Shown here: positions 21,683 to 58,148 of the stretch, one piece after another
Position numbering within the stretch: the first letter of the stretch is position 1
Layout of the letters: every line of letters starts with the position of its first letter
Assembly: GCA_037367355.1 (NCBI GenBank)
Contig: CM074698.1
Span: 3,906,001 to 3,970,000 of the forward strand
Source: Neoscytalidium dimidiatum
Taxonomy: Eukaryota; Ascomycota; Dothideomycetes; Botryosphaeriales; Botryosphaeriaceae
Length of the DNA stretch: 64,000 nucleotides
Reading direction: 5' to 3'
Notes under the pieces: generated by a model
Database searches by the model: none
The model's input: only the letters and a program-made list of their open reading frames with translations
What the model was told of the DNA's origin: nothing
Made by a program: the position numbers and the translations under genes

Positions 21683-24355
21683 ATGTCTTCCCCGCCTACG
21701 TCCGACACCCACCCATCGTCCCCGCCGTCATCTCCACGCGCTACACGTCCCACGTCTCCTAGGTCACCGCCTCGCCGGATTCTTCACGACCAACGTCCCT
21801 CGGACACAAACTCTGCCGCCGGCGGTCCCACCATCCGGATTGTCGAGGACCCAGGCTCCCCCGTCTATGGAAAATCTCCCTATCCGTCCCAGCCGTCACA
21901 CATCCTGTCACCCTCCAATGCTCCGGGATCGCGTCAGGATGTCCTGGCCTCGCCAGTTTCAGATTCGGGACGCTCAGCCAGTCCTGGAGCAGACTCGCGA
22001 CCAAGCTCCTTTGTGCAGCGAATGGCGGCCCGCTACGAGACCCTGGCTACTAAGCCGTCGCAATCACAGCCACGCCAGTCATCCGCATCTTATCGAGCGT
22101 CGACGTCAACCACCACGTCCGATGCGGAGACTCTCAACACCCTCGCTGCACCTTTCTCTCCGGGCGAGAACCGCTTCTCACAGGGAACTACTCCGCCAAC
22201 GTCACCGCTGCCGTCATTCTCTGATCGTAAGCATGACAGCATTGGGAGTCTAGGCTTGCTCCAGGAAGAGTCGAAGCCCCCGATCGCACCAACTGTTCGC
22301 GCTGTGATTCCGTCCTCATCCACCACCGGAGATACCGCTTCCACATTTAGGCAATCTCACGACACCTCAAGACAGTCGCACGACTATTCGCAAGATCTTA
22401 CGGAGACTTCGTACGAACAATCCAACGCTTCCACACCCACCTTGACCTACCATAATAAGGATCGCCGCGGGTCCTTCGCTTCTTTTCCCTCGCGCGACCA
22501 GCCCGCCGACCGCCCTCCAACCCGGGGTAAGGAATCCGAGAGCCAACGAAGTTCGTGGGCTAGCGCCTCTGGATTCGCGCCCGATGAGAGACCACCAACT
22601 CGCGGTAGTAATATCATCCGCCACGCTCCTTCTTCTTCTTCCGAGGAACCCGAAAGGCCCCCAACAAGGGGCTCTAATAGCGTTCGGAGTTTCTCCACCA
22701 CACACACAGTAGAGAGGAGACCGTCAAGAGCAAATCTCAGAGAGGCGGCGTCGGAGCAGTCTTTCAGCAGTGGAGCACAGAGCAGCGGCCGTCCACGGTC
22801 AGCAACCAGTCCGCTCGGCACTTCGCATGAGAACCGTTCAATTGAGGAGTTCCAGGGTGGCTCTTTACTGCATTTTCCTAACCGGCCCTCGTCCTCAGGC
22901 GGGGAATGGTCCGAGTCGCGCATGCTTCCGCCTCCTCCCCCGCGTATGCCAGAGCCCGAGTCGCCCAGACGGTACAAATGGAGCCCGCCGCTTTCGACGA
23001 TCGAGTCGGTCTCGGAGCCCCGGACCGGCTCGGTGGCCAGCACACTGGCCCTCAGTGGAATGAGTCGCACGAACAGGAGGCAAACAATGGGCAGCCTGGG
23101 TTCGTCAGAGCCATGGAATTCTTCAGAGCATCGTTCTTCCGAGAGCAGGCCAGATATCCCATCTACTCCGAGCGAATTCTCAGTCATGCCTCGTCCACTG
23201 TTTTCTGGCTCAAGAGGCGGAAATGGTCAGATGGAAAGCCGGCATTCAGAGGAGGGCAACGACACCGTCGGAGAGCTACAACCTCAGCCTTTGCGCCTTC
23301 AACGTTCTGGACTGTTTCGGAGAGGTTCGAATGGGAACCTGTCCAATGACGGTCGGCCAGACACAGCAGCGTCTGATCGTAGTTCTTACACTAGCCTCTT
23401 CGTCAACACTATCCCCCAATGGGCGAGGTAAGTGTCGCACCTCAGCGCACCAATTTTAGACGTGGCTGGCTGTACTCGTCGATGAAAGCTAACCGCACCT
23501 AGGCTATACTACCGTCGCAGCGAACGCGTCTCGCTGGCCACCGACTCTTCTGATTCCCCCAGCAACAGTCCGCTACCCAGTCGTACTGCGACTATGCAAT
23601 CTGGCACCAGCCGCTCCCCCACCGAAGCAAACTTTCCAATCCACCCTATTTGGTCGCCGCGTCGTCGACCGCACCAGCGCGGCAACTCGGGATCGCCGTC
23701 CGCTCGGCAATCGCTGGAGCCGAACGTTATGCCTTACGATTCCCAGGATTCCATCACTCCCGCCCCGCCACCGAAGTCCGCGAGTCGTGCCGAGGGCACG
23801 GCCCGAACACGTGCCAATACGGCTGGAACAAGGAGTATGCCTCCTCCAACTGCCGCTGGAAGGGATTCGTTCACACCACGACTGCGGCGCGACCGCAAGA
23901 GCGTAACGCTGAGCGTTTGGACGGTCCCAAGCATTGACGAGGCGCTTGGAACTCCCGCCAACAAATACATCCTGCTTTTCACTCTCGGGTTCGTCATGCC
24001 GCTCTGCTGGATCATTGCGGCGTTTCTTCCGCTGCCAACGCGGCCCAACGAAGAGCTCGAGCGTCTTGGCGGTGAGATGACGGAGAAGAGCAAAGGCAAG
24101 GGCAAGGAACGTGCTTGGCCTGGAACGGAGCAACAACTGACCGGTGGAGTTACGCTAGGAAATGAGACTAATATCGAAGCGGGCCTGGGCCTAAACTTAA
24201 GAAATGCTACACAAGAGCACCAGCGGGATTGGGCGCAAGAGGAAAGATTATGGCTAAAGGCCAGATGGTGGAGACGGGTCAACCGGGCAATGTCGGTTGT
24301 CGGCATTGGTGTAATTGCAGCAGTTATCGTGGTCGCGGTCCTTGAGACGAAGTGA
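21683..24355 (+). CDS. Serine/proline-rich protein with two C-terminal membrane segments, unknown function
   Basis: Two exons, 21683-23427 and 23503-24355, with a 75-nt intron (GTAAGT, branch GCTAAC, acceptor ACCTAG), give 865 aa. The join restores SLFVNTIPQWAR-LYYRRSERVSL, a motif I recall from conserved fungal serine-rich proteins. The first 700 residues are low complexity: SP/TP-rich and with a repeated RPPTRG(S/K) block around 22.5-22.7 kb, presumably disordered and phosphorylated. Near the C-terminus are two hydrophobic helices, about residues 736-759 (YILLFTLGFVMPLCWIIAAF) and about 842-862 (VVGIGVIAAVIVVAV), separated by a charged loop. This suggests a membrane-anchored protein with a long cytosolic tail. 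The start is the first ATG of the frame. Function unknown. Confidence 0.85.
22494..22691 (+). repeat. Imperfect intragenic repeat encoding RPPTRG blocks
   Basis: Four encoded copies of (D/E)RPPTRG(S/K)-like text (DRPPTRGKES, ERPPTRGSNI, ERPPTRGSNS and a diverged ERRPSRAN just after) lie within the serine-rich protein gene, spaced about 20-30 codons apart. Confidence 0.7.
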
Positions 24356-25455
24356 AGAGACGTATTATCATTTCTGGGAGGCTTGAATTTTGCGGAGGAA
24401 AAATTTCTTGGCTGCATCTTCTTTCTTGATATCCTGGCTGGACTTCACGGCCTTGCTCAGTTCTTCGCAGACAAGTCCTACGACATCTACCTACCTACCA
24501 ACCAACCTACTTACCGACATACATATCTACATACATCCTTCTTACGTCCTTAATGCCGTTATGGTTCATTTCTTGTCAACTTTTTTTTTTGCTATTGGTT
24601 CTTACGTTTTGGCTCATTCGCATCGTCATTCCGTCTTGTCGCATCTGACGAAGTCGATGATAATATGACTCTCGACGGCCTTCCCAGCCATCTCATCTCC
24701 TTAGACGTACATGGAGCGTGCTTGTCACATGGGCGGTATCTGCGCATTCTTCTTTTGTGTATGCTATCCTATGCACACAGCGTAGCGGTTCCAAATGTGG
24801 ACAAACGAGGAATAGACTGGGGTTTTTGATAGCCTTTCTTTACTTCTCTTCCGTCCTCCTGACTTTCTGCTGGGAGTGATGAGTTAATGATATTTTTTTA
24901 AGAGTTTGCACGGCAGGTATTGCAGTGCTAGTATATGGTCTTCACGGACACTAGCAGTGTAGAGTGGCATAATGCGGAATCAGCAGTTCTCGAAGGAAAC
25001 ATACTTGAGTCGTCGTCAAAGTCATAAGGCGACCCGAATCTAATGGGAGACGAGGGTCATCGCCAGCACATATTACAGTTCTCTCTTTGAAAGCATTCAG
25101 TATTATCTCAACATTCAGCTAAATCTCAAATAACGAAAGTGACGTAGGGCAGGAATCTGAGACACCCATTTCCCAACAAAAAAAGGCCCCTCTGAATATA
25201 AGAAAAGCCATGGGTATCACAAACCAGACCCTAACCCCTCTCTGCGACTTTTGCCTGTGTGTTCTGCGGAAACCTAAAGATTTCCATAAAGTTCATGTAC
25301 GTAAGCATACCGCTACAATAGTCAAAGCATATATATGAGGATGACGTTGGAAATAGACCACAGGCCAAGAGTGAAAAATGAATCAATGGAGGAGTTAGTG
25401 AAAATTACGAGGATCTGTGGGTAAGATGTTAGACTTACCTGGAGAACAGATCTTC
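24356..25455. other. Convergent intergenic region; start of the AT-richer segment
   Basis: Lies between the stops of the serine-rich gene (plus) and kinase 1 (minus). It includes a CTAC-rich stretch near 24.48-24.55 kb and AT-rich sequence. Only short frames are present, and no domain is recognised. From here to about 43 kb the base composition is visibly lower in GC than in the flanks. Confidence 0.5.
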
Positions 25456-27547
25456 TCACCTCCTACGTAGTAAGTATTGCTCGTCTCTCTCGGCCTTACA
25501 AAGCAGCTTTTGAAGACTTTCATGAAGTCCACCAGATCTGATACGGTCCTCGGGTTTGATTCTGAGCATACTTCCCATGAAGAGATCCAGCAGGTCGTAG
25601 ATCAGCTGAGAACAATGCTCATCCGCTCGCAGCTTATTCACCCATTCAATGACTCCTTTCCGCATCTCGGCTTTCCGTTCGCCATTATCAATCTTTAAGG
25701 TCCAGAAGTAGTCGTCTTTGATACTTCCCTCCTTAAGCAGAATAGAAGACTCCTCTACTCGCTTTGCCGAAAATTGGTCTATGGCTTCTGCACCTAACAG
25801 TAGCCAGGTCACAAACTCCAGGAATAAAGCGCCTAAGCTCCAAATGTCGTAGGCCCGGGATACGACAAGGTGCACGTGGCACTCCGGCGGTTCATACGTC
25901 GGGGAGCTGAAGATATGGTACCCAGCTGCGTGTGTTCTCGTTTCTCGACCATGGAACCTTCCCAGTCCGAAATCGGCGATTTTGAGAGTACCCTTCCCGT
26001 TTTTGCTTTGCGGAGTCTCCTGATGCCACAAGATGTTCTCAGGTTTGAGATCGCCATGGCGCCCAAACCATTCTTCTCCCGCTTTAACGGCTAACATCTT
26101 GTTGTCGCGCGTCATTTTACGGTCTCCGTCCACCGTCAAAGCAATGGGAGCTCTGAAATTGTGCACTCTGTCCAACGCGGAAGCCAAACCCTTCATTTGC
26201 CTAAGCATCCAAAGAACTGTCTCTTGGTCAAACACAGGTTTTTTCTTATCCCAATACGCCCTCAAGTTAGAGTTAGCACAGGGGAACATGAGGTGGAAGT
26301 TCTCCCTGTATTTGTATGAACCCAGCAACTGGACCAGGTGATCATGTGGCTCCGCGTAGCCGAGAACTCTGAGGACTCTAAGTTCCTTGTTGAACTCTCT
26401 CTCATCGCTTACACGTAGCTTCTTGATTGCTACCTTCACTTCATTCCTGTCCTATGCTGCGTAAGCCCTCCGGACGCGCTGAAGCTGAGAAGATACTTAC
26501 TCTAAAGACACAAATACTCCAAAAGTCATGATATTCTTCATGGATCTGAACGAAGGAAACTTCGCTGTACGCACCGCCACTCGGACTCTTGTGTTTTTCC
26601 TGCTGTTGAGACAAGGGAATAAACGGTAGAGCCGCATTATGGCCAACGTCATGGTGTTTGCCGACTGAAAAGAAAGGAGCGAGCATCCACCACTGGTGCC
26701 TATCGAAGTCTTCTTTCTTTTCACTTTTCCAACTCTTCAACCAATTGAGTTCTTGTCCTCCTTTACAGCGTAAATCGAAACCAGAGTCCGTGCCCCGCAG
26801 GAGCGGCAGGTCAGTGTCAGAAATACCTGCTTCCAGAAAGGACACAATGTCTCCGACCTTTTTGATAGAACAGAGTATGCAGAAGAGGCCTATCGATGAT
26901 GTAACAACAGAATTCGCTAGTTTTGCGGCTTCTTCTGACGCCTTGGCCGGATGTCCCAATTGTATTGCCGCCTTGACAGTCTCGCATGTGGTCAATCTTT
27001 TCATTTGACTCGGAGGAATGTAGAAGCAAAAGGATCCGCGAGGGTTCTCAATACGAGCCGCCATTACTTGTTTCTTGAGCCTGCTGGCCTCCTCTCTCAA
27101 CTTTTTCAAGTTCTTTTTGTGATCCTTTTCGTTATCTGTCATACTGCCTGAGCTCGAATCTGATATTTCCGCGGACTCGTCGGTGGTAGAGCGATCCGAC
27201 ATAACCTTGAGTACAGAACGAGCACTCAGTCATAGTGAAAATCAATAGAGGCAAAACGAGACTGGCGGGTTCTTGTGATAGTTGGAGGTTCGTGTGCTGC
27301 ACACTTACCTGAATCTCAAGAGCCTTCTTCGTACACGGTTGGTAAAATAATTTGGGCCAAGGGTTCCGTTTGAGGTTTTGGAGGAGAGCTTAGATGTTTC
27401 ACCGAAGCGTTGTTTAACATATAATCCTATCTTAATTAATCAGGCAAGTAGTTTCGAAAACAAGTGTTGTCCTACCTTGGCTTCTTGTGGTTCTGCTCTT
27501 CGGGGTGAGCGGTCTTTGAGCGGACGCGTGCAGTCACAGAAAATCAT
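25456..27547 (-). CDS. Protein kinase with fungal N-terminal helical region, copy 1
   Basis: Main exons are 27205-26501 and 26451-25456 (49-nt intron). They encode an acidic start (MSDRSTTDESAEISDSSSG), a coiled coil (LKKLREEASRLKKQ), a helical region, then a complete kinase fold: glycine loop GGAYSEV, VAIKKL lysine, HGDLKPENIL catalytic loop, DFGLGRFHGR and SPTYEPPE. All catalytic residues are present, so it should be active. A first exon 27547-27476 (MIFCDCTRPLKDRSPRRAEPQ) is proposed because it matches the start of copy 2; the short exon linking it to 27205, somewhere in 27420-27309, is not resolved. The kinase is closest in pattern to the second copy at 32689-34956, with an intron at the same place just before the AIK lysine. 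Substrate and role are unknown; the cluster context suggests signalling in an accessory system. Confidence 0.85.
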
Positions 27548-28660
27548 TCCTGTAATCTGCCGGCTACTATGAAACAGATTTTCAGGACAACCGAGTCAGG
27601 TCAGCTCTTTTTAAGGCTAAAATGTAAGATGGTGCACGGGAGGAGGGTCGCAGTTTCTGAAGATGCCAGCCATTGGACGGAATTGAGCCTCAAATATTGC
27701 TAAGCAACCGGCCAGGAAACCGGTACTCCGCACTCCTAGGAGATAATGCTTGTCCGTCTAGCCTTGCGGTCGTAGCCTTGCATTTACTCCACCAGCCATC
27801 CTTCGGTGCATGTGTGCTGCGATAAGCTATCGTGAGTGGTCAGCAAAGACTTGCGGTGATGGAAATTGCAAGCCTACATTTGCCTGATTTTGCCTTGCAT
27901 TTTTGAAGCCCATCAAGGCTGCATGCGGGGTGCTGGGCATCATTGCTGTTCGAACAACGTCGAATGGGGATAGAGAACCGGGAGTTCCAGGCTGCGTCTG
28001 CAGATGCAAGCCTGCTGCACCTCAGCACACAACATGCTTGTCACTGCCTCCCAAGTACTTGCATGTGGCTGCACCAATTGAATATGAGCAAAGGAAAGTC
28101 CATTGAAAATGTCGATGTTTGACTTTCCCCGGTTTACCAGCTTGCTAGAAAAGTGGATGCTTATGTCAAACATGTTCGACTTACTGCTAAATTCGATCAA
28201 CCTTCTCCAAGGATTTTCGTTCACCATCTGCAACCGTGGCTGTCTCGGCGTCGATGCCGTTGCTGGGTTAAGGCATAGTTCTGAAGGTGGCAACGGTCCC
28301 TAAGTGCAAATGTCGAAAGACCACACTCTTGTGCGGGAACACGATCTTTAGATTGCGACCGTGAGAGTTGACGTGACCAATGCAAGAGTAACGGTTCATT
28401 GTAGATAGACAATTCTGTGACTATGTGAGCCTCATTTCCAAACAAGTGATTGAAGGCAAGTAACAATATCCTGATGAACTTAAAGGATTTCACAGACTTT
28501 GTGTCCTCATCCTATCTCTCCCAGGAAGGAATCTTAACAGATATCAGCAATGTATGTTTAAGAAGATCCAAATCAGAGATACTTAGGGCTACAGCTGTAT
28601 CACAGATGAACTACCATGATCAGATATACATACATCTTTCAAGCTACATGGCAGCTTCTC
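27548..28660. other. Promoter of kinase 1 and unassigned AT-rich sequence
   Basis: Only short frames. A minus-strand stretch around 28493-28340 reads KFIRILLLAFNHLF...ELSIYNEP and faintly recalls the small-protein family found at 30.3, 30.9 and 38.5 kb, but it lacks the conserved introns and residues. No gene called. Confidence 0.4.
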
Positions 28661-28669
28661 CATGAGATC

Positions 28670-28960
28670 GAGGTTCGAATGTTTTTCGGGGCTCGGTACG
28701 TCAAGAACGTGTAGTCAATCCACCTCTTCACGCTGTCTCCAATGATTGAGCCGTGTACAGTTTCTGTGATATTGGAATTTCCGTGGAGAGAAAATCAATT
28801 AAGGTAGTCAGTTTATCTTCGTCTATCATGAACTCGAGGGAATGAACATGAGAAATCGGAACTGAGGTTCCAGGATAGCAGAATAACGAGCGACTCTCAA
28901 GTTCTTGGTAAATTGCTGCCCAGCCTCAGGGGATTGAACAAGAACATTCATATTCAGCTG
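28670..28960 (-). pseudogene. Degraded CorA-like gene fragment
   Basis: Read on the minus strand, 28790-28690 encodes NITETVHGSIIGDSVKRWIDYT. This lines up with the end of exon 3 of the intact CorA-like gene (IFHSLLVADSVKGWMGY near 36.7 kb) at protein level and also visibly at DNA level over about 30 bases (GACAGYGTGAA...TGGAT). The frame has stops just upstream, and no continuous gene can be built around it. I infer a remnant of a second CorA-like copy. Its position just upstream of kinase 1 mirrors that of the intact gene relative to kinase 2. The boundaries are approximate. Confidence 0.55.
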
Positions 28961-30308
28961 ATTGTAGGATGTGCACCTCAACCGACCGAATGGCAAATGG
29001 TGACATGTTAGAAATGCATCACATACTACTCGACATTTTTCTTTAGTAAGGGACTCTTAGCCCGAAGCATCACAATCTGTTATGATTTGGAGGCCAGAAG
29101 CTTACAATCATGTTCCTGCGACTGCGGCGAAACCAAGGATGTCGATCCTAAGGATATTGAGGCTCCTGCGAAGTTTTTAGATTCCGCAGACAGTCAGTGA
29201 CGTGTTGATAGTGGGCCATCAACATTTCTGACAGATAATGAATATCAACAAAATATTTCGTATGCTCTGCAAAATATTCAATTTCGAGCGCTTTGAAGGC
29301 CAAAACACTGCTTGGAAACAATAGAACCACCTTTTCCCGCAGCCTTTTCCCTCGGTCATTCGATGACCTTCAGCTGCGTCTTGTCAGCTTTCGCTTTGAA
29401 ATGAGCGACTGATTTCTGGTCGCTTGATGTTCCGAGATCGGAATTATCTTCCTGAACATCAGGGTACGATGGAGCAGGTCATTCTCGAGGCGAAAAAGAA
29501 AGAGAGTACATCATCCCGCCACTGCAGCTGCAAGCGAGGCTCGGTCGACAACGGACAGCCGAGATCTTCTGGAGTAAGCTGCTTTCGGGGTCTCCGAATC
29601 CATAGGAGGAATGTGGTGAGTTTGTAGGGCCCGGCCTTCAATCGAACGCAGCTCCGGGAAGCGGGGCACAAGGTCCAGCTCTGCCTCGCCCCAGCTGTGT
29701 CTTCTCGGCGCCTCGAGAATCCTGCCTGAGTGGCCAACGAACCTGCAGTTGAATGACTTATAGTAGCACAACATGTCCGCCCCCCTTTATCAACACGGTC
29801 ATGCGGCATTTTTCTCATTGCGCAGTGGCCTTGCAGGATTGCGCGGCCTGCAGGATGCATACATGAGGCATCCACGGACTAGAAGCCTTTTCCTCGGGTG
29901 CTTGAGTTCGTGCGATTAAGTTCGTGCGAAGCTCGGGAAGTTCTTGTTGATGTCTACATGCTCGGACAGTTGAGGCTCAGAATTTCTCACAGGCGCTAGA
30001 ACGAGAGTAAGCTGGAAGGGGAAGTTTTCTCCGGAAGCAATTGGCCAACAACGCTCGAAAATTGAAAAGCAGTGGATAGAGCAATCGGTCCCATATTGCA
30101 TGCAGAAGTCACGGTAACATTCGACCATTTGGTTCAACTGCATGATTTGTTGTCAATGCATAGCAGGGACTCACCCGATAACAGTATCGAACGGACATTA
30201 AAGCATGCTGTCTCAAAGCAGTCCATACTCAAGCTCATCGATACTTCTCGTGTTGCACTCCAGAAGCCAGGAAGGCATTTGTGGCAATTCTTCTGTCAAA
30301 GCAGCGCA
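28961..30308. other. Unassigned sequence with probable gene remnants
   Basis: A minus-strand frame at 29330-29148 (60 codons, EIEYFAEHTKYFVDIHYLSEM) and another at 30143-29916 (75 codons, with GTDCSIHCFSIFERCWPIASG and SEHVDINKNF) look protein-like but have no intact gene around them. The second recalls the end of the hydrolase-like region of fungal NLR/SERAC1-type proteins; this is a weak impression. The region may be a graveyard of accessory genes. Confidence 0.35.
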
Positions 30309-30593
30309 ATGCCAACCAGGAAAGTCGAGCCTCGTTATGTTGATTATGCACGGCTGTTGAAACTGTTGGACTCCCTCTATCCAGGACGTTATCGGGCTGA
30401 GGTTTGACTGACCGGCGACCCACTTCAGACGTGTGCAAGGCTAATTGATCAGTAGATGAGGCTAGGAAAATGGATCGTCACCACACCTGAACCACTTACG
30501 GAGGTAAGTGTTTCTTATAAGCCTTGCGCGCCAGTTCTGTCAGCCTTTTGACTCCAGCAGAGCCAACTTCAAGGCTGTGCGCAGCCCTCATAG
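30309..30593 (+). CDS. Small three-exon protein, family copy A (57 aa), unknown function
   Basis: Exons 30309-30401, 30456-30503 and 30561-30593, with introns of 54 and 57 nt (branch GCTAAT in the first). The protein starts MPTRKVEPRYVDYARLLKLL and continues LDSLYPGRYRAE, then after the first intron MRLGKWIVTTPEPLTE, and ends SQLQGCAQPS. Both intron positions match copies B (30922) and C (38523): after the RAE/VE dipeptide and just before the (S/D)Q(L/I) segment. That shared structure, not length alone, is why I call a gene too small for routine prediction. There is no signal peptide or membrane segment. It lies 328 bp upstream of copy B on the same strand. Function unknown; the fold could be a small alpha/beta unit. 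Confidence 0.65.
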
Positions 30594-30921
30594 TGACCGG
30601 TGCGCACAATCTTGGAAGAAGGTATTTGGTACCACCTGCACATTGTTTTACTTTGCCGATTCATGCGGTGGAACGGTGCAAGCCGCCGCTTTCAAATCAG
30701 GTACGGATCAGAGCAGCAGTTGCACATGCATTAGCGCTAGCTGGCGGGGGCAGTCTGCATTTGTTTAGCGAATGGTTTGGCACTACGCACAACGTGTAGC
30801 TTTTCTATCTGAAAATCTATAAGTTCCTGCAATTTCACTTCTGTCGTGGGCCTCGGACGTGTCCACTCTTCATTTGCTCGCCGCCCCACCCCTCTGCCCT
30901 TGGCTCTCGTTGTACGATACA

Positions 30922-31260
30922 ATGAAGTCCGACCCTCAAATCATAGAGAGTCGCTTCGTCGACCCGCGGAAACTGATGGCTCTCTTGGAAGAGAGGTGCG
31001 GTAAAGGCGCATTTCGCGTGGAGGTAAAACGCAATCATGATGGATCCATGGCGCTGAACACTGACGATGCTTCAAATTTTGACAGCTGAGACGGAATCGA
31101 TACAACATCTACTATGCAGCCGGTGTAAGCACCTCGGATTACCTCACTTCGGTACGCGAAGCTTCGATGGATTCATTTGGCATCCCGGGACCAGATTATT
31201 GATAATCCTCAGGATCAAATACGGCATTGCCGAGGGAGCAGTAGAATATTGCGTGCTTAG
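30922..31260 (+). CDS. Small three-exon protein, family copy B (62 aa), unknown function
   Basis: Exons 30922-31023, 31086-31124 and 31213-31260, with introns of 62 and 88 nt (GTAAAA/GACAG and GTAAGC/CTCAG). The protein opens MKSDPQIIESRFVDPRKLMA and continues LLEERCGKGAFRVE; exon 2 gives LRRNRYNIYYAAG and exon 3 DQIRHCRGSSRILRA. Compared with copy C, the blocks QIIE, DPRKL, F(R/K)VE, LR.NRY.IY and DQIR.C are shared, and the introns fall at the same residues. The middle exon is shorter than in A and C, lacking the segment that ends in LTE. There is no targeting signal. Copy A lies just upstream on the same strand. Function unknown. Confidence 0.75.
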
Positions 31261-32415
31261 CAATTGCGGGAATATTCAGCTCTTTCGGGTAGCCACTGCA
31301 GCTCACATTTCCCCATTCTTGGAGTCTTGGAACGGGGCGCAGTCGACGTCGGCAAAATATTTGGAGGCGAACGGGCGTTCACGGTCTTATTTATGAAGCA
31401 ATTTTTATTGGATCCTTGTGAATTTACATTCTCTTTGTACATATCAGACGTTTTTGATCACACTAGGGAGTCACGAATAACAAATATATGGCTTACGCGC
31501 GTACAGTATTCTTCAGAAATATCTGCGATCACAGCACAGATGCGGGGTCTTCAGGTGCCCACATGTTTGCATCTTGTGATCATCGGCCGAGTATCCGGGG
31601 TTGCCTATCACAGCCAGCTCCGGCCCCTCCATCCTTCAGCAAGAGATGGCGCTCGCCCTCGAGCGTAAGGTGTGAGTCCTAAATTTATGACGGGTCGGCT
31701 CAAACCCTTGCTCGAATCCAAGCAACCATCAGCAACACCCCTTGTTGATTCGTCAGCAAGTGTGTTAATGATCTCTCGCCTCCCAGACAAGATCCCTGCT
31801 TCTTGTGCTAACGAGGGACAAGGCAGATCCTACCACGTACTACTATGAGTCGGGTCTCGCCAGCATCACACCGTATCACTTTATTGTACATCCTGAGGAA
31901 TCCTGTCAGGAGAGTTGAATCAATGGGTATGGAGCTAGTAAAAGAGGGCGTGTGGGAGAACGCTGTGTTTCCAAGAGGCAAATGCGGCAGTCGCCGATGG
32001 CCGCCACCGCGTCGGTCCCAGGCTGGAACAACTTTCATCGCCTGGCCAGTGGCAAATTCGTTGCTGATGGTGTGTTGGACGTGCTCCGGGGTTGCGTTTC
32101 AATGAGAGGAATACGACAGAGCCAGCGACACCCGGAATAACGGCGCATTCGCTCAGTCAGATGGCCACCGAGGCCTGCTTCAACCGGAGGGAATGCAAGC
32201 TGAAAATGTTACTCGTAGTCATTATCTCATATCAGCACTGCTTGGCTCGTGTCAGGTGATGGTAATTACTCTAACAGGTCCGACGGTTTCCGTGAAGGAG
32301 TCAGAATGCAACATACTGCAAGGTGATCAAGGATCCAGAAAGGCAAGTGGAGTGAGATTAGCATCCACAAAGCACCGCCGTAAGATTCAAAGTTGGTCTG
32401 AAACCACGGTCACGA

Positions 32416-32455
<40 letters not shown>

Positions 32456-32688
32456 AAAAGACTGCTCTCACTAACAAGTCTGATATGGAGAGATTGAAGG
32501 GGTATCGAGGCAATAGAGTCACCATCTATGTGGAAACAATGACCTGAGTCCCAGTAAAAACCGCTCCGCATCCGATTTGCATTCCACCCCTTATGAAGTG
32601 AATATGTAGAGAGTTGCATCGTGAATACTTTACTGAGGGGAAGATGACCTAAGTTCAGGCAAGACCTAAGCCTCTTTAAACTTAGCTG
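31261..32688. other. Intergenic between small protein B and kinase 2 (convergent)
   Basis: Contains short frames without recognisable domains and a GAAA microsatellite near 32.4 kb. No gene supported. Confidence 0.5.
32414..32457. repeat. GAAA tetranucleotide microsatellite
   Basis: About ten uninterrupted GAAA units ending in an A-rich tail, some 230 bp downstream of the kinase 2 stop codon. Confidence 0.95.
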
Positions 32689-34956
32689 TCACAACTGATC
32701 AGAATTTAGTCGATGCACGCTCGTTTCCGTCGAACTGGGATTCGGTGTTCTTGGATTTTGGCCAACCGGATCCTGTGGGCCATTTTTGGGGGCTTCGTCC
32801 GAGAATGATGATGGTATATTAGCCCCCACAAATGCCACCTTCTTTCCGGCCTTCCTAGACTTCGAGAATTCCGATGTAGCTTCGTCGTTGGCAAGTTCCG
32901 CTTCCGAATGTAGACGAATCGGCTTGCTCGGCTGATATGTCGCAGGTGCACATAGATAACTTTCGTCTTTGTCTACTTCAGCCAGGAAATTTCGAAAACG
33001 GACGCATAGCTCTGACGCCGGGACACGGTCTTTCGCTTCGATGCAGAGAAGATCGTTCATGACGAGGTCCACAACATCGTGGATGAACTTTGAGCAGTTG
33101 GGATGCTCGTGGATACCCTTTGCCCAATTAATAACGCCCTCGCGAACGAAGGCATCCACCGGCACGTTACCATCCCGTATGACCGTGAAAAAGTGGTCGT
33201 CGTTTAAGTTGCTTAGGCTTGAGGGCTCTCCACGGTTGTCTGAAAACTTTTCGATGGCGGCGTAGCCCATGAGAAGCCACGTCACAAATTCTAGATAGAG
33301 GCATCCAAGGCTCCACAAGTCGTAAGCTCGGGAGACGGGCCGATGGAGCTTACACTCGGGCGGCTCGTATGTGGGAGAGCCGAACACGTTGTGTGGAAAC
33401 TGCTCAGTCCGAGAATCCCTACCATGGAAACGTCCCAGGCCGAAATCTGTGATCTGAAGGATTCCTTGACCATCGCTGTCATGCTCAGGTATTTGCTCAA
33501 ACCATAGAATATTCTCAGGCTTTATATCACCGTGGCGTCCGTATATCTCTTCGCCTGCTTGCACTTTGAGCTTGACGTCCTTCTGAGGAGACCGGACCTT
33601 GTTGTCGACATCAAGCAAACGTGTGACTTTGAAGTTGTGGATTATGTTCAGAGTCTTCGCAATTCCGGCCATCTGTTGGAGAGACCAAAAAGCCGTCCTG
33701 TTATCAAAGGCTGGGTGCGGTCGGTTGCTCCAGAACTTTCTCAAGTTACAATTCGCGCGCGGGAAGATCAAATGATACTTTCCCTGGTGCTCATAAGTTG
33801 CAAGAAGCTTTACTAGGTGTGGACCTGCGTTCCTTTTTCTTCCAAGGGTTGTCAGGTTTTCCCGCTCTTGATCAAATTCATCTTTGTTGTGGTCACGGAG
33901 GCGTTTGATTGCAATCAGAAGATGCTGATCCTGATGACATTCGTTAGAGCGCACATTTGTAGGGAGAGGATTCTGGTCTATTGCTTACAGATGATTTCCA
34001 ATGGTTGTGGAATTTGTGATGCGCTTTATGGATCCGATATGTAAATACTTCGCCGTATCCACCTCCAGTTGGATTCCCCTGCTCTCCATCTTCTCCATCA
34101 AGCGAAATGAATGGCAGAACCGTGTTGTCATGAAGTTCATAGTGCTCCTGATCCTTGAACACGGGTGCAAGCATGTACCACTGTTTTTCGCCGAATGCTT
34201 CCAGGTCGTTGGACGTCCACCGGTCCAAAACATGGATTTTTTGCCCATTCTTCCGTTGTAGGGAGAACATGCATTTGCGATTCTCGCCTTGGGCTCTCTC
34301 AAAAGGCAAATCCTTGTCCCACAGTCTTTCATCCAGGAAGTCGCAAATTTCTCCACCCTTTCCAAGGTATGCCAAGATAGCGAAGAGATTCCGGGCCTTT
34401 TTGACAACCATTTTGGCACGGAGTCTGACATCGTTGTAACCAAATTCAGTCCTTTTAGCAAGTATCTCCCTTACAACCACCTCCTCCGTAATTATTGCGG
34501 CCTTTTCACTTTCTGGGACGAAGAAGTGATGTGACCTCAACGGATATTCGATGCGCGCCTCTTGCAACTTCTGGCGAAGGTGCTCTGTGTCTAGACCCAG
34601 CAGAAGCTCGCTGGGAGACTTACTTGATTTCGTATCGTTTCCTGGACCACATTCGCTATCCGTCTCTCGTGTTGCTTCATGTTCTTTAGATTATGTGTTA
34701 GGCCTCAGACCACTTCTCAACGTTGTCCAAATTTATGGTAAATACCTGGAACGTTCCCTGCCACTACTACCGTATCTTCTGGGGGCTGAGACGAAGATTC
34801 GACTTCACAAACAAGTGGAAGAGGAGAAATCTACCTTCTAGTGAGTGAAAACTAATAAGATAGCCTAGTTTGAGTAGGTGTACTTACCACTGTTCCCTGC
34901 TCTGTATTTGTATCTGGGCGACGTTTCGAAACTCGTGGAAATGGAAAGCATATCAT
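32689..34956 (-). CDS. Protein kinase with fungal N-terminal helical region, copy 2
   Basis: Four exons: 34956-34888, 34830-34746, 34683-33989 and 33930-32689, with introns of 57, 62 and 58 nt, keep one frame throughout and give 696 aa. The N-terminus starts MICFPFPRVSKRRPDTNTEQ; a helical region (EHLRQKLQEARIEYPLRSHH) precedes the kinase domain with glycine loop GGGYGEV, IAIKRL lysine, HGDIKPENIL, DFGLGRFHGR and GSPTYEPPE, so catalysis should be intact. A 100-residue polar tail after the C-lobe is absent from copy 1. The kinase domain and the intron just before the AIK lysine are shared with copy 1 at 25456-27547. The first two introns are less certain than the last. The gene lies 676 bp from the CorA-like gene, on the same strand. 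The substrate is unknown. Confidence 0.85.
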
Positions 34957-35632
34957 GCTCTCCAAATGGCTCTGGACACTTCGGAGATGTTCTCGAAATC
35001 TATTCATGATGGGTAGTCCTACAAGGGGATTGTGCTACGAGCTTAGAAATTTGTTGCCGAGCTAGTCTGAGATTCGAGATTGCACAAAAACCTGCATTTA
35101 GATAATATGAGCATGATACTCGAGCCGCAAGGCTGAATTCAGAGATTTTATTAGTTAGCGCGCAGTCGCGAACCAGGCTTGATGCAATTTTCCAGTTTGA
35201 GCTCTCAGCTCAGCCCCGCAACCACACGCGATTTGAACATTTCTACCTCCTTATCCCAGTTCGGATACCACACCGAGCACAATTCTGCCTTAGCGGTGGC
35301 TGGCTTGCGTCAAAATGCATGATCAAGCCATGACTGACACTAGTGGTGGTCAGCGTGCAACATGCGATCAGTATCCGAGCGGCGCAGCTGAAGAGGTTTC
35401 TATTTGCGCGGCACATCTTGCTGTGCCACATATAGGCCAGGCAGTAAGGCAACTATGAATGCAGCGCAAGACTAGGTAAGGGCGGAATGGGAATACTGAA
35501 TTGGACGATAAGAAATGCAAGGTTGTCAAGCCATCTAATCCCGGCCAGCCACACATCGCACTCCCGTGTTTTGCATGATCGGGAAGGTGTTCGCAGAAGG
35601 ACCCCTGCAGCTTTGCTCAGCTGAACCAATGA
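34957..35632. other. Promoter of kinase 2 and 3' flank of the CorA-like gene
   Basis: 676 bp between two minus-strand genes. No gene or clear motif is seen. Confidence 0.5.
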
Positions 35633-37634
35633 TCACCCATCTTGCAACGTAGTCTTGCCTGTGGACCATGTACCAACGCTGACAGGAGCAGGCATCATTG
35701 AGGGATCTTCCAAATCCCCACTGTTTCCCAATCGGCGCTTCTTCCTTTGCTGTCCCCAAGCGGGCCAGCCACCATGAAAGGCCGCAAGGCAGCACTTTAG
35801 TGGCTTTTTGGAGGCTGAAGAGTTTCGGTACCGCACACAAAGCCACCAAGTCGCGACCGTCAGGATTGTCAAGGGTAGTGCGATGGCTGCAAGCAACCAG
35901 GTATTGGCATTCACGTTCATGTTACCGCTCTCGTCCGTCCGGACAAACTCCGTAGAGAAGAAATTCTTTGGTGCAGTCAGCATCCACAAGGATTTCCGGA
36001 GATGGATCGACTTACGGCGACAAATGTTGTTGGCAGGTATACCAGGCCAATAATAGTTAGGACCTTGACCGCTTCGGCATCTTTCGTACTCTTTTCCTAT
36101 TTACCCGTAAGTATACTTTCGCATTTGGTATCTTACTCAGATGTAATTACAGCCAAAGACCGCATTGTATGGTTTTCTTCATGTGCCTGTGCAGTCAGCT
36201 CTTTCAGAGCCTTCTGGTCTTCATATCGTAACAAATCCGAGAGCTTATGAGAGAGTTAGCGAAGGTTTCTCGTCGTGAGCTGGTAATATATACCAATTGA
36301 GCAGTCGAAACAACTCTTTCTTTCAGTACACTCGTTCTCTCAATACAGATATCAACCTCTGCGATATACTCATCGAATTCGTCGTATGCCTGCTCACAAG
36401 CACAGCCGGCACTATCGATCTTTTTGCAAGAAAGGCTACAGCACTTCTCGCAATACTTACGAATGCCCTCTATGGTGCTGCGCAGCGTAGATAAAATGAT
36501 TTGCAGGTCGATTATTGAATCCTCAGTGACTTTGAGACTCTGACGATCCTCAACACTGAAGTCGAAGCCGTCACGTCTTTCTTTATCCGCTGCACTGAGA
36601 TCTGCAAAGGTGATTTGTACAGACTAAAGTCCTCATTTAGCTGTAGGATTGCGGTTGCGTTCCGGAAACTTGACCTACCTGCTCCTTGACATGTTTTTCA
36701 AACCAAGCTATGTAGCCCATCCAACCTTTCACACTGTCTGCAACAAGCAAGCTATGAAAAATGCACGGGGCAGCTGCGCTCTCTGACGAGAGCGCTACCT
36801 CAAGCAGATTGTTGACACTCCGGTCAATTGATTTCGAAGGAGCAACGAGAAGTGCTATTGAGCGGGGTTTTGAACCCGGATCAGAGTCAAGAGAGAAGGG
36901 GTCGTCCGTAGGAGAGCCGTAACGATGATATACTGCCGTTTGGCGTATAGACCATGGGCACTGGCCCTCGGTTGACTTTCGATTATTCAGCTCAGCACGT
37001 CTGATAACGTAGGCAGATTCTAATACCTTGTCAGTTTACTGAGTCATCAACCGAGGTCGTGAACAAACCGATTGCCCTCCGTCCTGAGATGCCTGATAGG
37101 GCGCGTGATCTGAATCCTGGAAACTCGCACTCATCTTCATCTGACTTCTTGCCAAAGGTAGATATGCAACTCCATAACGGCGGAAATGCAGCAAAGGTTT
37201 GGACAAAGTCTTCAAACAGCTCTCGAGAAATATCGAGGGAGGTCCACGAACGTTCTTGACGCACAACGTAGACTTGAAACAAGTCACTCGTGGCCTGTAA
37301 GTTGTCAGAAATTTAGGAAATTATGCAAATGTGTCAATTGACTTACCGCTCTCAAAATCTTGAGCTCTGAGGCATCTTTGACTTCCACGTCCCGTTCAAA
37401 TGACATTGTCTCGTTGTCATGAGCAACGCCACTCTTGAACAATCTACTGACTTGTAATTGAGGCCTGTCTGGCTTTCCGTCGAAAAGATCGATCGACTTC
37501 TTATCAATAATCGTTCGCAACTCCCAATCTTCCTCTCCGAGGTTGAGGAAAGAAGCCATTGTGGATGTTGGTCCCTTGCCTCCTTCCAGCGACCGCGTGC
37601 TAGAATCCGGATTGAGACACACGGTTCCGTTCAC
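35633..37634 (-). CDS. CorA-like Mg2+ transporter domain protein (fungal type), intact
   Basis: Seven exons: 37634-37347, 37294-37069, 37019-36679, 36623-36294, 36243-36151, 36090-36016 and 35965-35633, with introns of 49-60 nt, give 561 aa. Every join keeps frame, and several introns have GCTAAC/CTGAC branch points. The N-terminal region shows RSWTSLDISRELFEDFVQTF, CPWSIRQTAVYHRYG and LLVADSVKGWMGY; a Cys-rich helical stretch follows (CEKCCSLSCKKIDSAGCACE). The end has two membrane helices (VLTIIGLVYLPTTFVANFFS and TWLLAAIALPLTILTVATWW) after an alpha-helical stalk, the layout of CorA-fold channels. The GMN signature of true CorA is not visible; the first helix instead ends in a NFF(S) motif as in fungal CorA-like proteins of unknown role. 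It probably sits in a membrane as an oligomer. Whether it moves ions is unknown. A decayed relative lies at about 28.7 kb. Confidence 0.88.
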
Positions 37635-38181
37635 TTCAGCTGATGGAGGGTTGCCTCCAGCTGATCAGACAAATACTGAAAGCGGGGGAAGCCACCTGCT
37701 GGAAAACTGTCCATTCACCGGCCGTGAGTGTCGTATGCATGTGCGGAGCGCATGCCGCATGGCTTGCCGCTCTGCCTTGCTGCGCATGTCCAGATGGTCC
37801 AGAGTGCATACCCATTGGCAGATAAGCAAAGCCACCCACCATGCATATGCAAAGATGAGAACTGCCTTGCCACCCTGTTCTTTCTGCCTTGCGCGTCACC
37901 CTCGCGTGGTTCTGATCTAAGATTACTTGCAGAAGCATCCTCGTTTACGCAATGCTCCTCGTACCTCTTGCGTTCTTCACTCTTAGGGCTTAGCAATCAT
38001 TGGAGAGCTTCCCAGAATCACTCCAAAACTCCATTCAATACTCAGCTAAGCTTCAAGACTTTTGCTATGGACACCTTTTCATCACTTCAAGACGAAAAAT
38101 GTGAATATTGGAGAAATAATTCTACAGGGGCATTCCGAGGAATAGGATCTCGCTTTGTCAACTCTGCGCAGCTTCCCATAC
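37635..38181. other. Promoter of the CorA-like gene and 3' flank of small protein C
   Basis: About 550 bp between two minus-strand genes. A plus-strand frame (37728-38234) runs through it but shows no domain and is antisense to the neighbour. No gene called. Confidence 0.45.
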
Positions 38182-38523
38182 CTAATAACGCCGTATCCGA
38201 TAAGCTTGGCAGTCCCGGATTTGGTCCTGTGTAAAAATCATTCAGTGCCTTTCATGGTGGCAGACTTCTCAGAGAAAGCCCATACTTCTGTCAAATTGCC
38301 CGCTGTCTCTTGCGAATGATATATCTTGTACCGATTTAGCCTGAGCTAAGATTTTGCGAAGCTATTAGTCCCACTATCCAAATATCTCTGGAAGCCGAGT
38401 CGGACAGACCTCGACCTTGAAATTATTCTGGCCGTAAACATCGCTGAGCAGGCAGATGAGCTTACGCGGATCCAGATTCTGGCCTTCAATGATTTGCGAA
38501 GGCCCCGTTTCAATGGAGGACAT
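38182..38523 (-). CDS. Small three-exon protein, family copy C (72 aa), unknown function
   Basis: Exons 38523-38410, 38345-38286 and 38226-38182, with introns of 64 and 59 nt (first: GTCTGT donor, branch GACTAAT, acceptor CTTAG; second: GTATGG/ACACAG). The protein opens MSSIETGPSQIIEGQNLDPR and continues KLICLLSDVYGQNNFKVE; exon 2 gives LRLNRYKIYHSQETAGNLTE and exon 3 DQIRDCQAYRIRRY. It shares the blocks QIIE, DPRKL, FKVE, LRLNRY and DQIR.C and both intron positions with copies A and B. An in-frame ATG 32 codons upstream exists, but the added text is not conserved. It lies about 550 bp upstream of the CorA-like gene, on the same strand. Function unknown. Confidence 0.75.
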
Positions 38524-40562
38524 CTCTTGAGGTGGAATTGGGGATGAAAAGTTGCATAGGATGGAGGAGATTGTGTGATTTAGAGCATGTGGGATCTGGA
38601 GAGCACTGTAATCTGACACTTAGGCGGGCGATGTCGGACTGATGAGGAGTTCCTGGAAATGCGCATCTGCGCGCAGCGCCTCGTGAGGTAACAAACGTAA
38701 GTATGAAGGCAGCTGCCAAGACCGAGCCTTGCATTTCGCCCCCCACCTTGCGCAACTATACATGCATGTCTTAACGAAAATGGCATATCCTAAGGCCATC
38801 GCGCCACCGGAGTGCGGCACGTATTCGTGCATCTGCAGATGTTATGGCACCGCCGGCTCTAGCTCCTCTGGGTGCAGTAGTAGAGTGACATGTGTACAAC
38901 GAAAGGTAACGCGCGCGTCGTAACAAAGAGAGTGGAGAGATATCATCGCATCTTCAAGCCCTGTTAGCCAGGCTCCAATGAAAGGCACTCACATCTGTCA
39001 GGGTGGCGGGCGTTTCTGCATGTACAGTAATTAAAATTTCGAGCGTCGCTGTCAACGCTAATTTTCGGCTGGCGCGCGCCTAGCTTTGCTGGTGCCACTG
39101 GACAGAGAAATCAAGGCGCCCGGAATGGCAGCATCACTCTTAGCTGATAGATTTTCCTTAAATTGCGCCTTTCCAGTGACATGGTTGTCTTATCCCATAC
39201 GCCGTAAGTCTTAGGAGGTGGCTCGGAGAGGCAACGGAGAAGCTGAACGGCAGCTGAAAGTTGAGAAGCAGCGTTGCTGAGATATTGGGGGCACAGGCAT
39301 CTTTATACATGGGATTCATTGGTAGTTGGGTATCAGTCGCCACGGCTTGTTGCGCATTGGGCAGACCTCTGCTGCGTATTTGGGCAGCTGCGCAGTTTTG
39401 AGACGCGTAGCATCCCAGCTCCAGAAATATAGACCAATCAGCGGTAAGGCTTGTAATTGAGTGATTTGTGGCACCCAGCATCGAACGTTTGATGTATCAC
39501 CGGAAGCCTTCCGATCTGTGGAGCGTCAGCCGTGTAGATATCTCATACAAAGTACGAGAACATAAATGTCTAGATTGAGCGAGCCCCGCAGGAGAGAAAC
39601 TGGCTCTGCAGAAAAAAACGGGATGGAGCCTCTTCGAGCACAACACTCGAGGATTCCAGTCTTTCTCAACCTTCAAAGTAGACTGAGATAGGTTGCTCAC
39701 TGTTTCCTTTCCATTGTTTGTAGATAACGGAACGAACGAGGAAACTAAATCGAAAACGATAGCGCACTGAATACCTCTCATGTCCTGATTTCTCACCAGA
39801 CTAATATTTTAAAAGCATTTCTACACATGAGGTGGCTCATTGTGTTTCCCATTCGACTTTTCATGCACTTCTTCTGGGGTAGGGGTGAGGAAGAATACGG
39901 CATCCCGGAAGCTCGGCATGGTATGTTAGTCTTGAGAAAAGACACTTCCCCTACTCTCAACGGAACGGAATATGTGTGTGGAGAAGCTGTCAGTAGCCAG
40001 GGATGACCCCTCCGGATCAAACCCGTGGGTCGCCTCTAAACGTGAAGCACCCGAAGGTTAACCGATTTTGGAAAGTATAATACCTTGCATCTGAACACTG
40101 AGCTCCTACATACCCAAAAGTCAATTATAACTTGAAGTGTGTGATTACCTCTAGTTTTCCAGCAGATTGTTCCACGGCCCTTATTTATCCGTTCAATACA
40201 GGTTTTGAGAATCCACCTTCATATTGAATAGTGCCAGGCTGGCCTGATATCGAGGCCGGTGGCTTCCCTTACTTTGCTAAAGGCTATTTCACTACGCTTA
40301 CACCGCAATCAACACGTCATGAACTCCCGCTGCACACTATGTTCGCAAGAAATACTTTCTTTTTCTTTGTTGGTTGGGAATATTCTGGAGATGCGGTGCC
40401 GGATCAAAAAAGAAGTATACTTCGCAGATAGTCTTTTTCATTCCACGCCCAAAGATACGGCCTTCAGCATCTTCAACAACAAATAATGGAACACTTCAAT
40501 ATGCCTCAAGCGAAGTGTTTCCTACACAAAACATCAGAGGCTCTCCTCAACCACCCGATCCC
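38524..40562. other. AT-rich intergenic region with unassigned short frames
   Basis: About 2 kb. Minus-strand frames at 39796-39497 (containing GIQCAIVFDLVSSFVPLSTN) and 39481-39158 are open for about 100 codons each, but I recognise no family and cannot build a gene. The remainder shows nothing clear. Confidence 0.4.
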
Positions 40563-53009: not shown

Positions 53010-56000
53010 TCAGGCCCTCCTCACGAGCGCAATTCGGCCGCCAGCTTTGACCGTGTCACCCGGTCTTACGAGCACCTTCTCCACCTTTGCCGGTGGGCCA
53101 TCGGCCGTGACCAGGTCTTCAGGCAGGCGGACGGAGATTTCCAGCTTCATCGCCTCAAGGATAGAAATCTGAGAGCAGATATCTCGTCAGTGATTGTAAC
53201 GCACGATATGCTTGGGTCTGGATCTGGATCTGTTGATCCGGTCTGTGCCTTACCAGGTGATTCGGCTTCAAGACGTCACCGTCTGTAACCTCAACCTTCC
53301 ACACGTTCGCATCAACTGGTGCTTCTATAGCCGTGATGGCAGGGTCTGTGAATTTAATCATCAATATCATCCGTTCGCAAGTAGGGCAGGTACGAGGACA
53401 GGGGTTTCTTACCATCCAACAAGCTCTCCACCGTGCTCTCATCCACCTGTTGGCTCTTCTTCTCCTCCCTCCACCTCGCCAAACTTTCTTGCTCAGCCTT
53501 CACCATTTCTGCTTGCGCGATTGCCTGCTTCTCTCTAATCTTCCTGACTTCGTCCTTCGTCTCTTGCAGCAATCTGTTGTGCTCCGCCATATCAAACGTC
53601 ACTTCCTCCCACTCCCACTCGTACAACCCTGCTCTGAACTTCTGCAGCAACTCCTCCATCTCCTGCTCGCTCACCTCGTAATACGTCAACAAATCAAAAT
53701 CCTTATACAACCACGGCCGCGACCGCTCAAATCCCTTCTTCCAGCCCAGCACGTCAAAGCACGGTACCGTGCGGCCGGTCATCTGATAGCCACCGGGAGA
53801 GTCAACAGGGTAGAGCGACATGCAGCTGCCGCCCCAACTAACAGTGCCCTCAGGAGTATAGACGCGGGACGGATTCATCTTAGGGCAGTTAAGACGCATT
53901 CGGGGGTCGGCAGGCAAACAAACAGTGTTGCCGCAGAAGAAGCCGACCTCGACAGCGACGTGGGTGCCGGTCAGGTAGATCTGCTTGAGCTCTTCCGGCG
54001 TGATGCCGTTGTTGCGAGCGACGAAGGCCAAGTTGTCAGGCAAATAGGGGGCGTGCGGTCGCTGCGTCTCCATGTACCGCGCGATGGCCTCGCGCTGGGC
54101 GGCGCTCTCGAAGCTGAGCGGCAGGCGGAAGCGGCGGCAGGTGAGCTTCGCGGTGCTGAGATCGCCCAGCTGATCCTCGAGTGACTGCAGGTACGGGATG
54201 AGCTTCTCGCGTGGCAGGGCGCTGCCGTCGTAGAAGAGGAGGAGCGAGGTGCAGCAGCCCATGGTGGTGATGAGGTGGTCCTTCAACCAGGAGGGCGTGT
54301 CGTCACCGCGGATGCGCGTTTCGAGCGCAGTGACGCGGCAGCGGTGATTCAGGTCGAAGTTCTCGTGGCCGTACTCGATGATGAGGTGGTCGTCGCCGCC
54401 CTAAGGAAGAGGTCAGTCCTCCATCTACTCCCCTCCACCCAAAAGCAGATATACATACTTGTCTGTACGTCACAGCAGGCTGGTGGCCCTGTTCTGGCCT
54501 GTGCCAGAGGACCGACTTCCCCCATTTACCAGACACCGTCGACGGCGCCTTGGACTGCGTGTCTAGTGGCTCTACCAGATCCCATCCAATAGCTCCCTGA
54601 ACCGCGGCCTCCACGGCGCTCAAGAATGCCTCTAGCTTCGCCCGCGCGGTCAGCGCATCCTCCAACGACACCCTCTCATACTGCATCTGATCACCCGCCT
54701 TGATCTGGCCCATTTTCCACCACTCAGCCCGCACGATGGTTGTCGAGCTGACGAACCCACCGAAGTTAGGGCAATCCATAGGGAAGATGCATGGGTCGTC
54801 GCCAGTCCAGTTGAGCGTGCCGAGCGGGTAGCCGTACTCGACCAGATTGCTCGGATGGGCGCCGCCCTCGCCGCCATCCTTGCGCGCCCACTTGGGCACG
54901 GGGCCGATCAGTCTGATACCGCTGCGGCTGGCGTTGTGGCTGACCTTCCAGATTGTATCGTATATCATGTCCACATCCTCCGGCAGCAGATACCCTTCAT
55001 CATGCGGCCCGACCATGGCCTTGATCTTCCAGTCCTTCGTGTACGCCGGGCGCAGGTGCTCGGGCACGCTCACCACCTTCTCGGCCACCTCCGCCGGTAT
55101 CTCCCTCACGACCTCGAGCAGGTCGCCCGGCGCCAGCTGCCGCCCCTGGTACCCGCCGATGCCCACCGACGGTGACGTGCTCTTCGACCCGAAGTAGCTC
55201 GCTACGCTCGGCAGGCCGCCGTAAATCGCCAGGTACGCGCGACACCCGCCCGCCGTCGTCTTGCCGATCTTCAGCCTCTGGCCCGCGCGCACATGCACCC
55301 GCGTCCACATCGGGAACGCCCCGCCGTCCAGCGCGGCCTCCATCGGCGGCCCGCACAGCGCGACGACCGCGGGGCCGACGAACCGCAGCTCCGGCCCGGA
55401 CAGCGTGATCTCGAGCGCCTCGGTCGTGCGCGGGTTGCCGACGACGATGTTGGCCAGCTGGAACGCCAGCGGGTCCATGGGCCCCGCATGCGGGATCCCC
55501 TTGCCGACGGAGGGCCGCCCGGGCAGATCCTGCACCAGCGTGTAGGCGCCGGCCGAGAGGACGTCGATGGCGTGGGGCGCGAAGGTGAAGTCGGCCAGGA
55601 AGCTGGTGAGCGTGTCGCCTGCGGCGAACTTGTCGCTGCGCAGGATGGCGGTCAGGAATTCGAGGTTCGTGGGCGGGCCGCAAATTTTGGAGTTTGACAG
55701 CACGTCTTGGAGGCCAGCGATGGCGGCGGCGCGGGTGGGCGCGTGGTGCATTACTTTGGCGATGAGGGGATCTGAGGTGTGAGGAGTTAGTCATTGCTAT
55801 AGCAGGCCATGCGGTCGAGGTAGGTGCCATGTCCCGTATCTACATGCACTGGCGTCGCTTGTGGCCCGTCTGTTGTTATACAATCTTGGCTGAGTGGTGA
55901 GAAGGAGAGCCAGCTTACCGTAATTGGGAGTGATTCGGGAGCCGGTGAAGACCCACGTGTCAATTCTGGTCCCAGGAGTCTCCTTCCACTCAACTTCTTG

Positions 56001-57354: not shown

Positions 57355-58148
57355 CTTTTGTGCATAGAAGCTGCAGCAAGCTTACAGCTCCTTTTTTTTT
57401 TTTTATCTTTTCTTCCTTCGTGCTCAACTCCCGCACGCGACCAGCGTTGTATCAATTTATAAATGGCGGGGGGAAGGAGAGAGATACACCACCACCACTC
57501 TTCTACCAAGACGATCACCGGAGTGGCTCGCGATTGCACCGCCCAGCAAGCGATACCTAGTCAGGAACGCGCCTCGTGGGCAGAGCAGGACAGCTGGGGG
57601 GCAGGCGGGCGGAAGGAGCTTTATCAGGGCGCTATGGGCGGCGAGGACGGTCGTGTTACCCCTCTCGCGGGGACGAAGCTATGTCATTGATGGCCATGGG
57701 ATCGGGCCTTGGCCCCCTGGTTGCCGTGGCCGCGGGCTGCCTGCCATCCCAATGACAAGCGTCAGATCGGCATTGCTTGGGTCGCGGGGGGTGTCGCAGT
57801 CATGACGGAGGGAGGGGTAGCTCTGATAAAGCTGGGCCCCAAGCTACTCTACTCTACTTATCAACGCGGGGTCGGCACCGCTGCTCCACCCAGAGCTCCG
57901 CGGGATACCGTCCCTATCGCGAGAGCTGCCATAACTCCCGCCCACCTTTGGATAACCCCTCTTTTTAATTCTGTTTCTTTTTTTTCTTTCTTTTTTTTTG
58001 AAGCAGGAGATCGCCGAACTCGTGGTTCCCATCGGCTCCGTTTTAATTTTCCTGCATCGTCTCACTCGCGACGTTTTGCAATTGGCATTCCTTTTCAACC
58101 GCCGCCCTTCTTCTCTAAATTCCCGTCGCACCTCACACAATCATCAGC
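57355..58148. promoter_or_regulatory. Shared divergent promoter of the lactam gene pair
   Basis: 794 bp between the two ATGs. Three TGATAA motifs (GATA-factor type, as used by AreA in nitrogen control) lie at 57621-57626 (minus orientation, one base either way), 57824-57829 (plus) and 57858-57863 (minus). Close spacing of two of them would suit a nitrogen-regulated promoter. Pyrimidine tracts lie near 57.39 and 57.97 kb. Binding is inferred from sequence only. Confidence 0.55.

Follow-up and report, generated by a model that had tools for sequence, protein, structure and literature searches.

What do three very short, twice-interrupted reading frames in a compositional island of the genome of the fungus Neoscytalidium dimidiatum encode, and do they belong with the protein kinases and the membrane protein whose genes lie among them? 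The question is raised by a stretch of 64,000 nucleotides (assembly GCA_037367355.1, contig CM074698.1, positions 3,906,001 to 3,970,000 of the forward strand), referred to below as the window, for which a first-pass annotation had proposed a family of three tiny three-exon genes, A, B and C. That these are real genes of a real small-protein family is well supported, A standing for one type of sequence (A-type) and B and C for another (C-type). Gene A (30309..30593, plus strand; exons 30309-30401, 30456-30503 and 30561-30593; introns 30402-30455 and 30504-30560) encodes 57 amino acids (aa), the C-type paralogue B (30922..31260, plus; exons 30922-31023, 31086-31151 and 31213-31260; introns 31024-31085 and 31152-31212) 71 aa, and C (38182..38523, minus; exons 38523-38410, 38345-38286 and 38226-38182; introns 38409-38346 and 38285-38227) 72 aa. 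At the coordinates first proposed each has GT...AG introns and a single open frame, and a listing of the GT-AG chains of these spans contained the proposed proteins among many alternatives. With the acceptor three bases upstream, A would have 58 aa.

The lengths first given for A and C (57 and 72 aa) stood, but the 62 aa given for B did not: the second intron of B begins at a donor 27 nt later, and the 71-aa reading was taken because it scores 71.0 bits with the C-type profile against 54.7 for the shorter model. The second exon of B then ends in YLTS, which matches the LTE of the family at that position. The shared sequence blocks were likewise borne out in part, with intron 1 after VE/AE and intron 2 before (D/S)Q(I/L), whereas A departs from two of them (VDYARLLKLL instead of VD.RKL..LL, and MRLGKW instead of LR.NRY). 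In pairwise BLASTP comparisons, with the search space of one pair, B and C match at E 6e-16, A and B at 4e-5, and A and C weakly at 0.08. The direct similarity of A to the other two is weak; what makes the case for A clear are the A-type sequences from outside the window.

The choice of models by eye was removed by scanning possible ATG-to-stop chains with two introns (66,409 distinct chains in the whole window, of which 46,854 were scored by HMMER) with two profiles free of window sequence. The C-type profile (alignment A5) was built from 44 database relatives, and the A-type profile from two members, namely the A-type gene of a second locus, L011, and the first 48 residues of the Botrytis model P0083, both described below. 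With the C-type profile, the chain of C ranked first at 102.6 bits, and the ATG of B was the second-best start at 71.0 bits with the later intron-2 donor, while the chain of A ranked 66 at 19.5 bits, equal to one other chain from the same ATG. The A-type profile placed A first (46.1 bits), ahead of B (35.3) and C (19.7). The ranks between the three genes were taken by chains overlapping A, B or C, and the best chain outside them reached 11.4 bits with the C-type and 8.6 bits with the A-type profile; when the three loci were omitted (55,739 distinct chains, 40,068 of them scored), the best C-type score was again 11.4 bits. None of 20,000 shuffles per protein equalled the real score with either profile. 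B and C thus match the 44-member profile over its full length, and A matches the two-member profile of its own branch. The two branches align with each other over 54 columns in hhalign (E 4.2e-16), with an A-type profile that includes the A of the window. The proposal of three tiny three-exon genes is therefore confirmed by profiles that hold no sequence from the window and by the shuffles, and a profile-guided splice scan of this kind can find twice-split genes of 50-80 codons.

The conserved intron positions also proved correct. All five modelled genes (A, B, C and the A-type and C-type genes of L011) have their two introns in phase 0 at alignment columns 49 and 71, an agreement that is partly due to the choice of model, as A, B, C and the C-type gene of L011 are top chains of the blind scan and the A-type gene of L011 was modelled to fit; for the latter, the C-type profile slightly favours another intron 1 (21.7 versus 20.1 bits). 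The first intron follows (V/A)E and the second precedes (D/S/E)(Q/E)(I/L). Independent support for the first site comes from the database proteins, 57 of 84 of which have exons 1 and 2 joined, while 24 run on after F.V(E/Q) with a V, as is expected when translation is read into a GT donor. The run-on pattern demanded this V, and three of the 27 unjoined proteins (P0002, P0082 and P0083) do not fit it. Among the 24 run-on proteins, 13 reach exon 2, where the preceding residue is Q in 12 and K in one, compatible with an AG acceptor. Some of the joined proteins were taken from metagenome collections, on contigs about 1 kilobase (kb) long, and could represent transcripts. The unnamed family thereby receives a precise gene-model signature, which explains the truncation or fusion of some of its members by gene finders. 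Replacement differences per site are fewer than silent ones in all three pairs compared (pN/pS.349/.913 for B and C, with the 71-aa B;.261/.823 for C and its L011 counterpart;.474/.774 for A and its L011 counterpart), where silent sites are saturated and only the direction of the comparison is meaningful.

As to the distribution of the family, a single-sequence search with C returned 11 proteins, among them a Lepidopterella protein (66% identical, E 4.4e-18). Of 2740 candidates, 84 proteins were listed with the profile (E up to 10), and none of them carries a Pfam domain. The listed proteins span the Dothideomycetes (Lepidopterella, Diplodia), Leotiomycetes (Botrytis, Cadophora) and Eurotiomycetes (Rasamsonia), the class having been looked up for five species and being presumed by us for the remaining ones; C of the window is closest to the Lepidopterella and Diplodia proteins. 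Hypothetical proteins of about 70-90 aa, such as Lepidopterella K432DRAFT_430468, Hyaloscypha K444DRAFT_612776 and Lachnellula LAWI1_G003447, belong to the same family as B and C and share with them the pattern QIIEG..(V/L)D..KL..LL...YG...NNF.VELRLNRYKIY...LTE.QI.DC. The names shown for the known relatives are hypothetical or uncharacterized, and no separate A-type protein is listed. Six candidates were scored in the A-type search and two returned, a fused Botrytis model and a C-like fragment, both of them sources of the query. The suggestion of the first-pass annotation that the family is largely unannotated thus holds for the A-type, which is almost absent, but not for the C-type, which is present as hypothetical proteins in many fungi. 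A two-pattern scan of a bacterial and archaeal genome collection found one locus, L011, and the same scan of viral contigs and phages gave no match. We tentatively regard these sequences, in one reading with the gene module proposed below and at a little short of even confidence, as one unnamed small-protein family of the Pezizomycotina with two branches, an A-type of 53-57 aa (two full models) and a C-type of about 70-80 aa (B and C), with A, B and C all functional. In Rutstroemia, a single gene model (P0021) reads two C-type first exons consecutively, so that C-type genes may occur as direct tandem copies too.

The locus L011 lies on NYXK01000079.1 (1-31846), which is filed as a metagenome-assembled genome of Deltaproteobacteria (CPC1 66860). 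The contig bears intron-containing genes and eukaryote-type protein kinases, and its remainder looks eukaryotic by eye; its C-type gene matches P0041, which is read into intron 2, and is by eye nearly equal to P0047 of Cadophora malorum. For these reasons it is apparently a fungal contig in the wrong bin. On a single strand (plus), L011 carries in order an A-type gene (4658-4997, 53 aa, identified by eye and scoring 20.1 bits with the C-type profile), the C-type gene (5618-5955, 78 aa), the pieces of a membrane protein with two transmembrane (TM) stretches (6668-8629) and those of a kinase (9344-11577), the last two matching the window genes piece by piece. On the minus strand of the window, C, the membrane-protein gene and the kinase gene K2 follow one another in the same order. 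Past K2 come A and B, both on the plus strand, and further left lies another kinase gene, K1. The clear matches between the window and L011 (13.9 kb) are these genes, among them a 28-residue TM piece at 86% identity. In Botrytis cinerea T4, the model P0083 is a fusion in which the first two exons of an A-type gene are followed by the second exon of a C-type gene, which suggests that both types lie side by side in that genome as well. The linkage is real but complete in few loci, and the two lineages concerned resemble Dothideomycetes and Leotiomycetes.

K2 (32689..35008, minus; the 5' end set by eye and approximate) encodes an N-terminal domain without a Pfam match followed by a protein kinase domain (65.4 bits) that is 46% identical to the L011 kinase, and its paralogue K1 (25456..27202, minus; 71.7 bits) carries the same N-terminal domain. 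The kinases exceed the PF00069 cut-off, and all three keep the ATP-binding lysine, DFG and YEPPE, with HGD and not HRD in the catalytic loop. The membrane-protein gene (35633..37559, minus, several exons; ends set by eye from open frames and approximate) encodes two C-terminal hydrophobic stretches. Its description as CorA-like was not established. The C-terminal hydrophobic pair is as in CorA-type divalent cation channels, and the L011 protein aligns weakly with the end of the CorA profile; however, a rough join of the L011 pieces scores 13.2 bits with PF01544 against a cut-off of 27, less than the 16.9 bits of PF00001 (7tm_1), also below its own cut-off, and Pfam lists no CorA for the window piece. 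CorA channels have a GMN motif after the first TM helix, which is absent from the C-terminal pieces of both the window and the L011 protein.

Across the 43.8 Mb genome, six-frame searches clearly matched the small family only at A, B and C, with one further match of B on contig 3 at E 0.27; the Botrytis query had no match in the genome, A included. For the membrane protein there is a single strong copy, plus a match at E 0.13 elsewhere. The kinase N-domain has its two strong copies, K2 and K1, in the island, and two weak relatives lie outside it (E 3e-4 and 5e-3). The two strong kinase N-domains, the sole strong membrane protein and all clear small-family matches thus lie within 13.1 kb. No convincing small gene was found in the 10 kb around each of the two weak kinase relatives and the one weak membrane match, the best chain there reaching 12.4 bits (A-type profile) without family features by eye. 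Through this clustering and the collinearity with L011, the shared system with the kinases and a CorA-like protein suggested by the first-pass annotation gains support. B and K1 appear to be old copies of C and K2 that arose by duplication in place. The positions 24000-40000 form an island of low guanine plus cytosine (GC) content, 0.47-0.50, between flanks mostly of 0.51-0.66, in which no dinucleotide signature like that of repeat-induced point mutation was found. The best unrelated three-exon chain for the C-type profile lies at 28474 on the plus strand, between K1 and A (11.4 bits); it is possibly a decayed copy and more likely due to chance.

For the C-type, an AlphaFold2 model of P0014 (44 sequences; predicted local distance difference test 80.5) gave the order strand-helix-strand-strand-helix, a predicted half-ferredoxin-like arrangement without the last strand, which would suit pairing via open sheet edges; among solved structures there was no convincing match. 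From the linkage, the duplication in place and the fold, the small proteins are probably cytosolic regulators. With somewhat less than an even chance of being right, it is proposed that the A-type gene, the C-type gene, the gene of the membrane protein of about 500 aa with two TM stretches and that of the N-domain kinase with intact catalytic motifs form a conserved module, with the tiny proteins as cytosolic partner subunits. The A-type and C-type proteins could form homo- or heterodimers that bind the N-domain of the kinase or the cytosolic part of the membrane protein, set the activity of the kinase and relay a signal towards the membrane or away from it. A single testable module would thus take in dozens of hypothetical proteins as well as the A-type branch, which has hardly been annotated. 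More speculatively, and doubtful as yet, the module may be a eukaryotic signalling cassette of a new kind, in which a pair of tiny paralogous proteins, encoded side by side, would serve as regulatory subunits for a kinase and a two-TM protein, all kept at one locus across classes of filamentous fungi, possibly in self/non-self or stress sensing.

Several other explanations compete with a regulatory module. The small proteins could be real and functionally unrelated to the kinase and membrane genes, sharing with them an old, slowly rearranging locus; this is a possibility of real if minor weight, as the full linkage is seen in two loci only, yet the order of C-type gene, membrane gene and kinase is kept between two lineages, A lies beside C in Botrytis, what is clearly shared between L011 and the window is the module genes, and the duplicates B and K1 remained in the island. 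It is unlikely that the A-type and C-type form an antagonistic pair, toxin and antidote or a cell-death switch and its inhibitor, for which the kinase and the membrane protein would serve as sensor and executioner. A compact cluster in which tiny paralogues adjoin each other would suit such a pair, and the fungal regulated-cell-death clusters of two or three genes treated in PMC12881547 (nwd2/het-S, HELLP/PNT1, protease/gasdermin) are alike in outline, being compact gene groups with a signalling and a membrane component. The present module differs from them in its tiny paralogous proteins and in a kinase N-domain without a Pfam match; moreover, no NACHT/NB-ARC domain of NOD-like receptors, HeLo or gasdermin domain was found in the module proteins scanned, which are part of the open reading frames (ORFs) of the island, and the C-type is conserved rather than fast-changing.

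Still less probable is a C-type that belongs to the leader of the membrane-protein gene, where it would be a spliced upstream reading frame and control translation of the membrane protein. C does lie 5' of that gene on the same strand, with a gap of about 620 bp in the window and 730 bp in L011 (starts set by eye), but B, also a C-type gene, is not directly followed on its strand by a long reading frame that resembles a gene (a 134-aa open frame occupies 31264-31668), and the C-type is listed as a protein of its own in many genomes. Finally, a chance assembly of GT-AG pieces or a spliced non-coding RNA is hardly credible, since, although tens of thousands of open three-exon chains arise in the window by chance, the profile ranks, the shuffles and the relatives of B and C in other fungal classes speak against it.

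Elsewhere in the window, an ORF at 62307-62939 (minus), in a second low-GC stretch, scores above the Pfam threshold of PF17111 (PigL_N), a domain that is common at the N terminus of fungal STAND (signal transduction ATPases with numerous domains) proteins; the adjoining ORF at 59565-61301 has no Pfam match. At 54303-58857, adjacent ORFs carry carboxyltransferase (CT_A_B), biotin carboxylase and LamB/YcsF domains, a set that we take to resemble one of the oxoprolinase or urea-carboxylase type.
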